DNA of 64,000 bases. Origin: Caldicellulosiruptor changbaiensis (GTDB lineage: Bacteria; Bacillota; Thermoanaerobacteria; Caldicellulosiruptorales; Caldicellulosiruptoraceae). The position numbers and the translations under genes are program-made. Shown here piece by piece: positions 21,483 to 48,288 of this stretch. Within the stretch, counting starts at the first letter, position 1, and each line of letters opens with the position of its first letter. The notes beneath the pieces were generated by a model that was given only the letters and a program-made list of their open reading frames with translations, made no database searches and was not told where the DNA came from. The stretch is from NCBI RefSeq assembly GCF_003999255.1, contig NZ_CP034791.1, positions 2,272,501 through 2,336,500 of the forward strand, given 5' to 3'.

Positions 21483-22880
21483 TCACTTCACCCTACTCTC
21501 ATGCATCTTAAATAACTCTGGCATGACCTCACGTACTACCATTTCAAGCTCGTCATCACCAATAACAGTTGTTCTACCGTTTTCGTACTCTTTGTCAACC
21601 CACTCTTTTATTTTAGCCACTCGTGGGTCACGCTTGTCAATCCTCTGGTCGCCCTCAAGCCTAAAGTAGGTGTTAATCCATGCTGCAATACCAGCAAGCC
21701 CTGAGTGTGCGTCAACTGCAATGACAATTGGCCTGTTTAAAATCTTTTTTGTATCAAAGATGTTGTAAATCTCCTCATCTTTCAAAATACCATCTGCGTG
21801 AATTCCTGCCCTTGTTGCGTTAAATGCACGACCAACAAATGGTGTTCGAGGTGGAATCTCATAGTCAAGCTCTTTTTCAAAGTAGTCTGCAATCTCTGTG
21901 ATAACCTCAAGCCTCATGTTCTTTGTTGTTCCGCGCAGCTGAGCGTATTCAATTACCATAGCCTCCAAAGGCGTATTACCTGTTCGCTCGCCGATTCCCA
22001 AAAGTGAGCAGTTAACAGCAGACGCACCATATAGCCATGCAGTACCTGAGTTCACAACAGCCTTGTAAAAGTCGTTGTGACCATGCCACTCAAGCCACTC
22101 AGAAGGAACCTCTGCATAGTGTCTAAGTCCATAAATTATGCCTTGAACACTTCTTGGCAGTGCAACCCCTGGGTATGAAACACCAAGCCCGAGTGTATCA
22201 CATGCCCTGATTTTAACCGGCATGTTTGCCTGTTTTGCAAGTTTCATGAGCTCATTTGCAAACGGCACAACAAAGCCGTAAAAGTCTGCTCTTGTAATAT
22301 CTTCAAAGTGGCAGCGTGGAATTATGCCATTTTCAAGCGCCGCCTCAACAATTGAAAGGTACATCTCCATTGCCTGTTTTCTTGTCATGTTGAGCTTTTT
22401 GAATATGTGATAGTCAGAGCAAGATACAAGTATACCAGTCTCTTTTATTCCCATTTCTTTTACAAGCTGGAAATCTTCTTTTCGTGCCCTAATCCATGAA
22501 GTAACCTCTGGATAGCGATAACCTCTTTCCATACATTTGATTACTGCTTCTCTATCCTTCTTAGAGTACAGGAAAAACTCTGTCTGCCTGATGACACCAG
22601 AGTCATTGTCAAGCTCATGTAGATAGTCATAAAGCCTCACAATCTGCTCAACTGTATAAGGTGATCTTGCTTGTTGACCATCTCTGAAGGTTGTATCTGT
22701 TATCCATATCTCATCAGGCACAAACATAGGAACATGCCTGTGATTGAATGCTATCTTAGGAATTTCTGTATATGGAAAAATATCTCTGTAAAGGTTTGGC
22801 TCTGAAACATCTTGGAGTGTATATTTATACGCTGCCTGCTCAATCAGATTTGTCCTTGGGTTAAACTCTACTTTTGCCAT
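21483..22880 (-). CDS. Re-type citrate synthase-like protein (homocitrate/isopropylmalate synthase superfamily), paralog 1
   Basis: A 465-aa TIM-barrel acyltransferase of the DRE metallolyase superfamily, close to the clostridial Re-citrate synthases. It would condense acetyl-CoA with oxaloacetate. Motifs: ITDTTFRDGQQ, ETGILVSCSDYH, CHFEDITRADFYG, the metal-site HGHNDFYKAV, and GERTGNTPLEAM. The start is ATG at 22880 behind GGAGGG; longer in-frame extensions run into the operator. It lacks the regulatory domain of LeuA. The shared palindrome with the aconitase operon supports a citrate role. Assignment as citrate rather than homocitrate or isopropylmalate synthase is inferred. A second paralog is at 45030-46388. 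Confidence 0.72.
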   Translation of the reverse strand: MAKVEFNPRTNLIEQAAYKYTLQDVSEPNLYRDIFPYTEIPKIAFNHRHVPMFVPDEIWITDTTFRDGQQARSPYTVEQIVRLYDYLHELDNDSGVIRQTEFFLYSKKDREAVIKCMERGYRYPEVTSWIRARKEDFQLVKEMGIKETGILVSCSDYHIFKKLNMTRKQAMEMYLSIVEAALENGIIPRCHFEDITRADFYGFVVPFANELMKLAKQANMPVKIRACDTLGLGVSYPGVALPRSVQGIIYGLRHYAEVPSEWLEWHGHNDFYKAVVNSGTAWLYGASAVNCSLLGIGERTGNTPLEAMVIEYAQLRGTTKNMRLEVITEIADYFEKELDYEIPPRTPFVGRAFNATRAGIHADGILKDEEIYNIFDTKKILNRPIVIAVDAHSGLAGIAAWINTYFRLEGDQRIDKRDPRVAKIKEWVDKEYENGRTTVIGDDELEMVVREVMPELFKMHESRVK

Positions 22881-44648: not shown

Positions 44649-44880
44649 TTTATTTTTCCCACCTTTTTAATGAACAAGTATTTTATTATTTTTGTACCTT
44701 TATATTGTAATAGTAACATTTAAAATAAAAGAAATCAACAGTTATTTTCCTTTTTTCCATGAATATATTAATATATCATACTACCTTAGTAATTTTAAAA
44801 ATTTTGTTTCGATATTAATTCTAAATCTCTTGTTTATTATCTTTTTCTTTGGTATCATAATGGTATCATAATACTTATAA

Positions 44881-45011
44881 CAAAGCTGAATTCCTGTGTA
44901 AAAAGCACAGGATAGGGGGGACCCACTTTTTCGGGGTGAATCAAGGCATCTTGCCTTGTAGGGCAAATATCCCTTTCTGCCCGAACCCGTCAGCTAACCC
45001 CCGAAGCTTTG
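44881..45011 (+). promoter_or_regulatory. ydaO/yuaA-type (cyclic di-AMP) riboswitch
   Basis: The conserved family core is present in order: GGGGGGACCCAC, GGGGTGAATC, then GCCCGAACCCGTCAGCTAACC. P1 closes exactly: CAAAGCT (44881-44887) with AGCTTTG (45005-45011). CCTGTG/CACAGG (44893-44912) forms an internal stem. It ends 18 bases before the start codon, immediately upstream of the ribosome site (GAAAGGGAGG). TCCCTTTC at 44970-44977 could instead pair with GAAAGGGA at 45011-45018, covering that site. Confidence 0.9.
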
Positions 45012-45029
45012 AAAGGGAGGTATGTTTTT

Positions 45030-46388
45030 ATGAATGTTAAATTTAATCCAAAAACTCACATTCTTGAGATTGAGTATCAGTTCAGGGATGTTGAAGAGCC
45101 AAATCTTTTCAGGAACATCTATCCTTACAATGAAGTACCAAGGCTTGTTTTCAACCACAGGATTGTGCCCATGAACGTGCCAGAAAAACTTTATATTACC
45201 GACACAACTTTCAGAGACGGCCAGCAATCACGCTCGCCTTACACTGTTGAACAAATCTGTAGAATTTATGACTACTTGCATGAGCTTGATAATGGAAGTG
45301 GCGTTATTCTTCACACAGAGTTTTTTGTGTACTCAAAGCAGGACAAGGAAGTAGTTTTAAAGTGTTTAGAAAAAGGCTATGATTTTCCAAAAGTGACTGC
45401 TTGGATTCGTGCAAAAAAAGAGGACTTTGAGATTGTAAAGAGCCTTGGTATCAAGGAAACAGGAATTTTGGTTTCATGTTCGGACTATCACATTTTTAAG
45501 AAGCTCAAGATGACACGAAGCCAGGCAATGAAACAATACTTAGAGATTGTGTCATCAGCCCTTGAGGCAGGAATTATACCACGCTGCCACTTTGAAGACA
45601 TCACACGCGCAGACTTTTACGGGTTTGTCCTGCCGTTTATAAATGAGCTTATGAAGCTTTCAAAAGAGGCAAAGATGCCTGTTAAAATCAGAGCTTGTGA
45701 TACCTTAGGACTTGGCTCACCAATACCGGGGGTGGCTCTTCCAAGAAGCGTGCCTCAAATAATCTATGGGATTGTAAACTATGGTGAGGTGCCATCTGAG
45801 TGGCTTGAGTGGCATGGCCATAACGATTTTTACAAGGCAGTCATAAACTCAACAATGGCATGGCTTTATGGTGCCTCAATGGTAAACACATCTCTTTTGG
45901 GAATAGGTGAGCGAACCGGCAACACTCCATTAGAGGCAATGGTGATGGAATATATTCAGATAAGAGGGTCGGCAGACGGTATGAATGTTGCTGTGATATC
46001 TGAGATTGCTGAGTATTTCAAGAAAGAAATCGGGTATGAGATTCCTCCAATGACGCCTTTTGTTGGCGAGAACTTTAACGCAACACGGGCAGGAATTCAT
46101 GCAGATGGACTTATGAAGGATGAGGAAATCTACAATATATTTGATACAGGTAAAATCTTGGGAAGACCACCAAAGGTTATTATAGATGCATACTCAGGTG
46201 TTGCAGGAATTGTAATCTGGATAAACAGGTATTTTAAAGACAGCGGCATTGACATACAGGTTGATAAAAAAGACCTAAGGGTTCAGAAGGTTAAAGAGTG
46301 GGTAGACAGTCAATATGAAAATGGAAGAAATACATCAATAAGTGATGAAGAGTTAAAAGAGGTTGTAAAAGAGGTATTTGGTATATAA
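45030..46388 (+). CDS. Re-type citrate synthase-like protein, paralog 2 (riboswitch-controlled)
   Basis: A 452-aa homolog of the protein at 21483-22880, clearly paralogous along its whole length. It has the same motifs: ITDTTFRDGQQ, CHFEDITRADFYG, HGHNDFYKAV, GERTGNTPLEAM and FNATRAGIHADG. It is shorter at both ends. The start is ATG at 45030 behind AAAGGGAGG. The frame could run back to 45009, but that would translate riboswitch P1. Its leader is a c-di-AMP riboswitch; no TGTATACA operator is seen. Role as a second citrate synthase is inferred; homocitrate or related synthase remains possible. Confidence 0.72.
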   Translation: MNVKFNPKTHILEIEYQFRDVEEPNLFRNIYPYNEVPRLVFNHRIVPMNVPEKLYITDTTFRDGQQSRSPYTVEQICRIYDYLHELDNGSGVILHTEFFVYSKQDKEVVLKCLEKGYDFPKVTAWIRAKKEDFEIVKSLGIKETGILVSCSDYHIFKKLKMTRSQAMKQYLEIVSSALEAGIIPRCHFEDITRADFYGFVLPFINELMKLSKEAKMPVKIRACDTLGLGSPIPGVALPRSVPQIIYGIVNYGEVPSEWLEWHGHNDFYKAVINSTMAWLYGASMVNTSLLGIGERTGNTPLEAMVMEYIQIRGSADGMNVAVISEIAEYFKKEIGYEIPPMTPFVGENFNATRAGIHADGLMKDEEIYNIFDTGKILGRPPKVIIDAYSGVAGIVIWINRYFKDSGIDIQVDKKDLRVQKVKEWVDSQYENGRNTSISDEELKEVVKEVFGI

Positions 46389-46398
46389 AATAAAGCAA

Positions 46399-48197
46399 GG
46401 GGCTGTCCAAAAAGATGAATGGACAGTCCCTTTAATTTTGCTCTTTTGACATAGTGATATATTTTTGATATAATATATCAAAAATGATAACATGAGGTGA
46501 TAACCCATGGCTCGTAAACATGATAAAATTGTCTTCAAAAATTACAATCCATACCAATATTTAATGCCTATCGACCCAGAAGCTTTTATCCCTCAAAATC
46601 ATTTGGTCAGAGTAATTGATAAAATCATTGATAAGATAGATATATCAACCATAATGGAAAAGTACAAAGGTGGTGGTACAAGTAGTTATCATCCACTGAT
46701 GTTATTAAAAGTTTTAATCTATGCTTACATACAAGGTATTTATTCATCGAGAAAAATAGCTCGGGCTTTACGAGAAAACATTACTTTTATGTGGCTTTCA
46801 AAATATCAAGCTCCTGATTTCAGAACTATCAATAGATTTAGAAAAGAAATTTTGGGAGAGGCAATTGAAAATATCTTTGCTGAGGTGGTTAAACTTCTTA
46901 TAGAGTTAGGGTATGTAAACTTCGACTATTATTATCTCGATGGGACAAAAGTTGAAGCTAATGCAAACAAGTATTCTTTTGTTTGGGCTAAAAGTACAAG
47001 AACTTTCGAAAAAAAGTTAAGAGAGAAAGTGAAAAACATAATCGAAGAGATTGAAAAAATAAATGAAGAGGAAGATAAAGCATTGGGAGATTTAGATGTA
47101 AAGTTAGAAGCTGACTATGATAGCAAGCAGTTAGAAGAAAAGATTGAGCAAATAAATCAAAAACTTGAGGAGGCTGAGTTTAAAAGCAAAAGAAAAGAAA
47201 AAAGAGTAAAGAAGCTGGTAAAGGTATTGAAAAATGATTGTGTTTTCAGACTCAAAAAGTATGAGAATTATGAGGCAATTTTAAATGGCAGAAACAGCTT
47301 TTCTAAGACAGACAATGATGCCACATTCATGAGGATGAAGGATGACCATATGAAAAATGGGATGCTAAAACCTGGGTATAATGTACAAATCGGCACACAG
47401 AACCGATTTGTGATAGGTTTTAGCATCCACCAAAGTCCCACAGACACTGTCTGCCTAAAAGAGCATCTTTAGGTTGTGAAGAAGATGACAGGATTCACAC
47501 CCAAGAATGTTGTGGCAGATAGTGGCTATGGGTCTGAAGAAAACTACCTTCATCTGAAAAAATGTGGCATTAATAGCTACATTAAGTATAACACATTTGA
47601 CTTGGAGCAGACAAGGAGGTTTAAGAAAGATATTTTCAATGTAAGGAACTGGGAGTACATAGCTGAAGAAGATGCCTATGTTTGTCCTGCTGGTAAGAAG
47701 GCTAAATATTTGTATCCGAAGATAAGTGCAAATGAGAGAGGATTTGTAAGTTATGAGAAGGTATATCAATGTGAAGATATTTGTAATGGCTGTGAATACA
47801 GAGAAAAATGTTATAAAGGTAAAAGATGGAAGAAGAGATTTAGTGTAAGACCAAGGTTAGAGAAATTGAAGGAAGAGGTAAGGCAAAGGCTATTGAGTGA
47901 AGAAGGCAAAGAAATTTACGAAAAGAGGAAGATAGAAGTTGAGACAGTATTTGGGATAATAAAGAACAATAAAGGATTTAGGAGGTTCCTGCTCAGGGGT
48001 ATTAAGGGTGTAAAACTTGAGTGGGGTTTGGTTTGTATTGCCTATAACATAGAAAAATTAGCGAAGATAATAATAGAGGGCTGGGGTAAAACTGCCACCC
48101 AACCCTTTTTTTGTTTGCTATATAGTTCAATATTGGTATTTAATAGCATCAAATGCCCGATTCTGGTTATTAAAAATTATTGTTTTGGGACAGCCCC
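46399..48197 (+). mobile_element. IS1182 family element (inactivated)
   Basis: Terminal repeats GGGGCTGTCC-AAAA (from 46399) and TTTTGGGACAGCCCC (to 48197) bracket the transposase gene. The left end folds into a terminator-like hairpin (46397-46432). The element sits between AAAGCA (46392-46397) and TGCTTT (48201-48206), the likely halves of the citrate synthase 2 terminator. The transposase is broken by a stop. Confidence 0.85.
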
Positions 48198-48288
48198 TTG
48201 TGCTTTGTATAATAAAACCTTTTTGTGCTGGGGGTTGGTTCAAAAATATGCTCATTTTTGTCCATATTTTGTCATGTATCTCTCATGA
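46507..48288 (+). pseudogene. IS1182 transposase with in-frame stop
   Basis: The N-terminal part [19 protein letters not shown], with [24 protein letters not shown] and [15 protein letters not shown], is typical of IS1182 (DDE). The C-terminal part is GYGSEENYLHLKKCG then KIEVETVFGIIKNNKGFRRF. Both are in the same frame, split by TAG at 47470-47472. The reading frame also runs through the right IS end to 48288, overlapping araD on the other strand, so the native stop seems lost. Confidence 0.88.

Follow-up and report, generated by a model that had tools for sequence, protein, structure and literature searches.

The closest described system is the ydaO riboswitch of nlpC (cg2402) in C. glutamicum, for which translational OFF control was derived from reporter data (PMC9960051). 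The accessible text of that study describes translational action as previously unshown for the class and proposes a CTCC/GGAG pseudoknot on the ribosome-binding site. It also describes S. coelicolor rpfA, which has no canonical terminator, yet c-di-AMP-terminated transcripts are reported there. A related strategy is found in the interdomain-docking riboswitches, where the aptamer, once it has bound its ligand, docks on an element further downstream and the translational members occlude the ribosome-binding site, according to the relevant passage of a 2024 review (PMC10907184). Given the nlpC study and this review, the principle is already in print. A literature search covering few subscription papers returned no report of ydaO control by a pseudoknot on the Shine-Dalgarno (SD) sequence for the genus or the gene discussed here.

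The structural basis of the class is also described. In the crystallised ydaO RNA (4QLM/4QLN), the loop carries CUCCUUCG and the tail CGAAGGAG; the passage on this RNA in RNA-Puzzles III calls the pseudoknot stable and mentions models with 5 or 6 pseudoknot pairs from published data (PMC5393176). In the Dehalobacter tandem, as far as the available text describes it, switching is carried out by the 3' strand of P1 and the pseudoknot, and the gene under control encodes an osmolyte aminomutase (PMC9337991).

The aptamer and its pseudoknot

The locus lies in a window of 64,000 nt, the whole stretch of Caldicellulosiruptor changbaiensis DNA that was analysed. The sole RF00379 (c-di-AMP, ydaO/yuaA) match of this window scores 93.3 bits in cmscan (E 1.1e-20, gathering score 38), spans the full model (positions 1-134 of 134) and has standard pairs at 23 of the 26 consensus base pairs. 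By model match, consensus helices and loop/tail pseudoknot, the leader is assigned to c-di-AMP riboswitch class RF00379. A PF02457 diadenylate cyclase domain is encoded in the same genome (162.4 bits). The features of the locus are as follows.

44874..45024, + strand: c-di-AMP (ydaO/yuaA) aptamer RF00379, from cmscan and consensus pairs
44881..44887, + strand: P1 5' strand, CAAAGCT; the inner four pairs, 44884-44887, are marked by Rfam
45005..45011, + strand: P1 3' strand, AGCTTTG, ending in G45011, with which the pseudoknot strand begins
44961..44982, + strand: aptamer hairpin with the pseudoknot 5' strand in its loop; stem 44961-44964 with 44979-44982, from the Rfam alignment
44970..44977, + strand: pseudoknot 5' strand, TCCCTTTC, from the sequence and covariation of homologous positions
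45011..45018, + strand: pseudoknot 3' strand, GAAAGGGA, from the sequence and covariation of homologous positions
45016..45020, + strand: Shine-Dalgarno core GGAGG (GGAGGT to 45021), sharing three bases with the pseudoknot strand
44997..45021, + strand: competing predicted hairpin, ACCCCC 44997-45002 with GGG 45015-45017 and GGT 45019-45021; -7.4 kcal/mol folded alone
45030..46388, + strand: regulated gene for an HMGL-like protein (PF00682) of 452 aa, probably a Re-citrate synthase, from domain and comparison searches

Immediately 5' of the aptamer, 44851-44872 is an exact tandem repeat of GGTATCATAAT.

The sequence-only reading had pointed to an eight-base complementarity between a hairpin loop and a segment containing the ribosome-binding site, and its letters and coordinates are exact. 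TCCCTTTC and GAAAGGGA form eight Watson-Crick pairs, with A-G or U-U at the flanking positions. The 3' strand lies directly 3' of the closing helix P1, and the helix occupies three of the five GGAGG bases together with the purines preceding them, so that the ribosome-binding site is indeed included in part. The ATG at 45030 follows 9 nt after GGAGG and 11 nt after the end of the pseudoknot 3' strand at 45018. TTG 45009 is an in-frame alternative start; ATG 45030 and the sequence following it are common to orthologs, apart from the G002 ortholog, which has TTG at the ATG position and GTG two codons upstream.

These features suggest that the leader is probably a c-di-AMP riboswitch controlling translation, in which the pseudoknot 3' strand serves as the SD of the next gene. 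With abundant c-di-AMP, the pseudoknot would be stabilised together with the aptamer and P1, holding the SD in an 8-bp helix and leaving the gene untranslated. When c-di-AMP drops, the pseudoknot would open and ribosomes would bind.

Conservation in the genus

All 12 genus genomes carry three RF00379 riboswitches each. The riboswitch of the regulated gene keeps CCCUUUC and GAAAGGGAGGU in 12/12 genomes; the linker that leads up to the start codon is variable. The comparison of both segments in orthologs, which the sequence-only reading had proposed as a check, thus bears it out except for one outermost base: L038 has A in place of the U at the outer end of the loop strand, and the strands are otherwise invariant within the genus. 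As a result of this near-invariance, covariation can come only from the wider family. Taken together, invariance in the genus and covariation beyond it indicate that the complementarity is conserved. The regulated gene lies directly 3' of the riboswitch in 11 of the 12 genomes, and the SD distance is kept in those 11. In G006 (L054, L315), about 1.7 kb of other DNA stands between the riboswitch and its gene, beginning right after GGAGGT; this insert has a long open frame, with no Pfam match in the part tested.

Two expression platforms

The distribution of expression platforms was examined in 221 riboswitches. These comprised all 36 of the genus, 70 of the 93 of the family and class, and 115 from elsewhere in the phylum, the last made up of 7 from the first genome search and 108 from the top-scoring part of a longer list. 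Copies were called SD type when the start codon of an open frame lay 3-16 nt past the pseudoknot and an SD overlapped or abutted the pseudoknot. They were called terminator type, meaning terminator-like by this criterion alone, when a T run was preceded by a hairpin with an energy of -9 kcal/mol or lower. The first platform classifier, which overlooked the NlpC/P60 copies and accepted G-U-rich false helices, was rejected.

Overall, 82/221 copies are of SD type and 111/221 of terminator type. The genus has 23 SD-type and 12 terminator-type copies and one that is neither. The corresponding figures are 41, 25 and 4 for the 70 copies of the family and class, and 18, 74 and 23 for the 115 copies of the wider phylum, although beyond the genus these fractions should not be taken as population estimates, since the phylum sample consists mostly of top scorers and 23 of the 136 genome-search matches were left out. 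Restricting the start codons to ATG and GTG leaves 23 SD-type copies in the genus, 36 in the family and class and 13 in the wider phylum. At least 6 of the 18 phylum SD-type copies look doubtful (L122, L141, L157, L175, L195 and L206). When the 120 nt past the pseudoknot were shuffled, an average of 2.0 of the 221 copies (maximum 5) were called SD type, against the 82 real ones. Both platforms are present in each of the 12 genus genomes and, among the 24 family and class genomes sampled, in 18; the pseudoknot lengths of the two types overlap.

At the locus itself, a scan of 44650-45400 gave no terminator-like site, in agreement with the earlier statement that no terminator hairpin separates aptamer and gene. 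Nevertheless, the pseudoknot might be purely structural and its overlap with the SD a by-product of the purine-rich tail, with control exerted on transcription through pausing, Rho-dependent termination or an unrecognised terminator. The terminator-type copies, too, possess the pseudoknot and the purine-rich tail, and the rpfA ydaO copy of S. coelicolor is reported to terminate (PMC9960051, accessible text), so that the lack of a canonical terminator is no proof of translational control. Conservation of the pseudoknot alone is no proof of it either, given its presence in terminator-type copies; the start codon just behind it is the telling feature. This codon stands at SD distance far more often than in shuffled sequences, and its distance is kept in 11/12 genus genomes, which, with the lack of terminator-like sites, argues against transcriptional control and makes it unlikely here.

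Translational control, as first proposed from the sequence, is therefore backed by the SD overlap, the missing terminator and the conservation in the genus, but it is not new for the class. The overlap with the SD stands; the pairing itself is the general aptamer pseudoknot.

In two tandem arrangements, L019 then L067 (G013:C37:42937-42548, minus strand; PF02317 in L067) and L026 then L065 (G027:C12:45250-44882, minus strand), ydaO copies lie ahead of an octopine-dehydrogenase-domain gene. The first copy has a terminator-like hairpin and the second a pseudoknot on the SD, so that a single signal may act first on transcription and then on translation. A tandem-riboswitch review counts, in its accessible text, 77 c-di-AMP riboswitch doublets, most with an intervening terminator. 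L172 (G225:C49:83916-84257) consists of two ydaO copies 48 nt apart, with no terminator called after the first.

Folding energetics

The pseudoknot duplex has a predicted energy of -12.7 kcal/mol, and the duplex of the SD with the anti-SD -13.2 kcal/mol; the anti-SD sequence was assumed, as a search of the available genome sequence did not find the 16S 3' end. For 44880-45040, the aptamer fold with the pseudoknot open (-44.5) is less stable than the best nested fold (-52.4), so the pseudoknot and ligand would be needed for it to win, as befits a switch. Nested folding without the pseudoknot gives a mean SD unpaired probability of 0.17-0.29 in 11 genus copies. In such folds the SD is hidden by ACCCCC 44997-45002, and the ligand-free state may therefore not be fully open, which is the chief doubt about the proposed switch.

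Taken further, neither state might expose the SD: the pseudoknot would cover it when ligand is bound and hairpin 44997-45021 when it is not, leaving little or even opposite switching. The ACCCCC/GGG-GGT hairpin occurs in the best nested folds of segments starting at 44874 and 44880, and its energies range from -6.8 to -7.4 kcal/mol across the 11 copies of the genus. Against this, the hairpin displays no significant covariation: a complement to the four-base strand in the aptamer is found in the tail of 82 of 175 distinct sequences, compared with 75.5 ± 5.2 (maximum 91) for swapped partners, and in 28 of 59 SD-type copies, compared with 23.3 ± 3.2. It is also weaker than both the pseudoknot and the SD/anti-SD duplexes, and other pairings dominate once the 5' flank is lengthened; the SD bases then pair with the flank, which is unconserved in orthologs (last ten bases compared). 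Concealment of the SD in both states is thus distinctly improbable, and a pseudoknot that opens to free the SD remains the preferred reading.

Covariation of the pseudoknot

An equally good helix arose in 0.9% of 5000 shuffles of the tail, or of the loop and tail. A stricter comparison used a register-locked set of 40 sequences with equal loop length and tail register, chosen irrespective of pairing, which gives 240 cells for 6 pairs. Here 84.6% of the pseudoknot cells are paired, compared with 70.0 ± 1.5% after shuffling (0 of 500 as high), and sliding the partner by 1-3 columns lowers the value to 42-63%. Two-sided changes occur in 36 cells, against 12.0 ± 3.0 in shuffles. All six pairs show such changes, but 39 of 500 shuffles equal that; the remaining four measures were matched by 0 to 4 of 500 shuffles. 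In the 12-nt loop class (25 sequences), 83.4% of cells are paired, compared with 75.9 ± 1.65% (maximum 81.7%) in shuffles. Without the register lock, a column test on 185 distinct aligned sequences gives 73.1% against 63.5 ± 0.6%.

A looser loop/tail test gave a mean of 15.0 for a sequence's own partner and 13.0 for swapped ones, with swapped scores equal to or above own in 31% on average. It is only moderately discriminating because all the sequences use similar letters and part of the stem fell within the loop window. By the covariation evidence, 44970-44977 and 45011-45018 make up the ydaO aptamer's own pseudoknot, which covaries strongly across the class. That the eight-base match arose by chance, as the pyrimidine-rich loops, the purine-rich tails and the moderate separation in the loose test might suggest, is hardly credible in view of the register-locked covariation, the column test and the published pseudoknot.

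The regulated genes

The product of 45030-46388 also matches isopropylmalate and homocitrate synthases, below cut-off, and among solved structures a homocitrate synthase is its best relative. PF00285 citrate synthase was absent from the genome search, whereas it is present in 13 of 14 control genomes. The Re-citrate synthases of other anaerobes have been annotated "2-isopropylmalate synthase", according to the part of the literature available. The HMGL-like domain, the lack of a PF00285 match and this labelling elsewhere favour Re-citrate synthase as the probable product. A paralog at 21522-22874 (- strand), 71% identical over 451 residues and lacking an RF00379 match, may be the housekeeping enzyme, which would count against the Re-citrate synthase reading of the riboswitch gene. 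Directly 3' of the regulated gene, 46507-48288 (+ strand) holds transposase-like frames: the first has a PF05598 match, and a second frame carries the reading on.

In other genera, the homologs of 80 named records are 61-73% identical. Regular expressions for the ydaO motif were too strict for a search near these genes (the second missed the known L321 copy), and cmscan was used instead. It found an RF00379 match at 0/80 loci, some of which have fewer than 1500 upstream bases, and the gene's link to c-di-AMP therefore seems limited to the host family.

The three riboswitches of this genome differ in platform. The first (L001) lies ahead of a glutamate 2,3-aminomutase gene (TIGR04368, 675.8 bits, cut-off 650), and its terminator-like hairpin reaches -24.4 kcal/mol; an aminomutase-motif frame follows all 12 terminator-type copies of the genus. 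The second, of SD type, is the one at 44874-45024 ahead of the Re-citrate-synthase-like gene. In the third (L003), ahead of an SH3-NlpC/P60 protein, the letters differ (CCUUCUU/AAGAAGG) and the geometry against the SD is the same. The sister-genus genome G012 has a terminator-type copy followed by an aminomutase gene (644.2 bits, slightly below the cut-off of 650), and the ortholog of the regulated gene (83% identical) begins 37 nt past the aminomutase stop. No riboswitch of its own was found for this ortholog, and we infer that the two genes are cotranscribed. In three phylum-level genomes, an SD-type copy (L125, L126, L196) stands directly before a glutamate 2,3-aminomutase-motif frame.

Eam is described as a beta-glutamate osmoprotectant gene in the accessible part of PMC9337991. 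Less certainly than the switch itself, glutamate would be supplied through the Re-citrate synthase and converted to the osmolyte beta-glutamate by the aminomutase that the terminator-type copy controls, both copies serving one osmotic response. A broader proposal can be made with moderate confidence. Many c-di-AMP riboswitches of this bacterial class would need no separate platform, as the pseudoknot strand is itself the SD and a nearby start codon would suffice to turn a transcriptional copy translational; the same cell would use both types on apparently one osmolyte pathway (Re-citrate synthase, glutamate 2,3-aminomutase), and sister genera would control the same gene by different platforms. 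c-di-AMP would thereby be linked with beta-glutamate synthesis as well as with a probable citrate synthase. The system also makes a clean test pair, in that sister genera place the same gene behind different platforms and a single cell has the two side by side.

Comparison with known systems

As far as the accessible descriptions go, the B. thuringiensis kdp riboswitch (PMC6488665) and the Dehalobacter Na+/c-di-AMP tandem (PMC9337991) share the aptamer class and OFF logic with the present locus; their platform is an intrinsic terminator, of which none was found here. The 4QLM/4QLN pseudoknot strands occupy the same positions as 44970-44977 and 45011-45018, in a crystallised RNA consisting of the aptamer only, and the passage on it makes no mention of an SD. 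The 2024 review assigns the ydaO class to the interdomain-docking group, citing Nelson 2013, in a general listing whose passage gives no specific ydaO example (PMC10907184).

The nearest likeness is to C. glutamicum nlpC, which, in the available text, also combines a ydaO-type aptamer, the lack of a canonical terminator and a pseudoknot strand on the ribosome-binding site. Unlike the present case, it concerns an Actinobacterium and a cell-wall peptidase gene, and the pseudoknot was proposed for one sequence. Reporter data are available there; the pairing here is backed by class-wide covariation. Translational c-di-AMP control, so far inferred in the accessible literature for one actinobacterial gene, would thereby extend to a group in which, judged by sequence, it is common.
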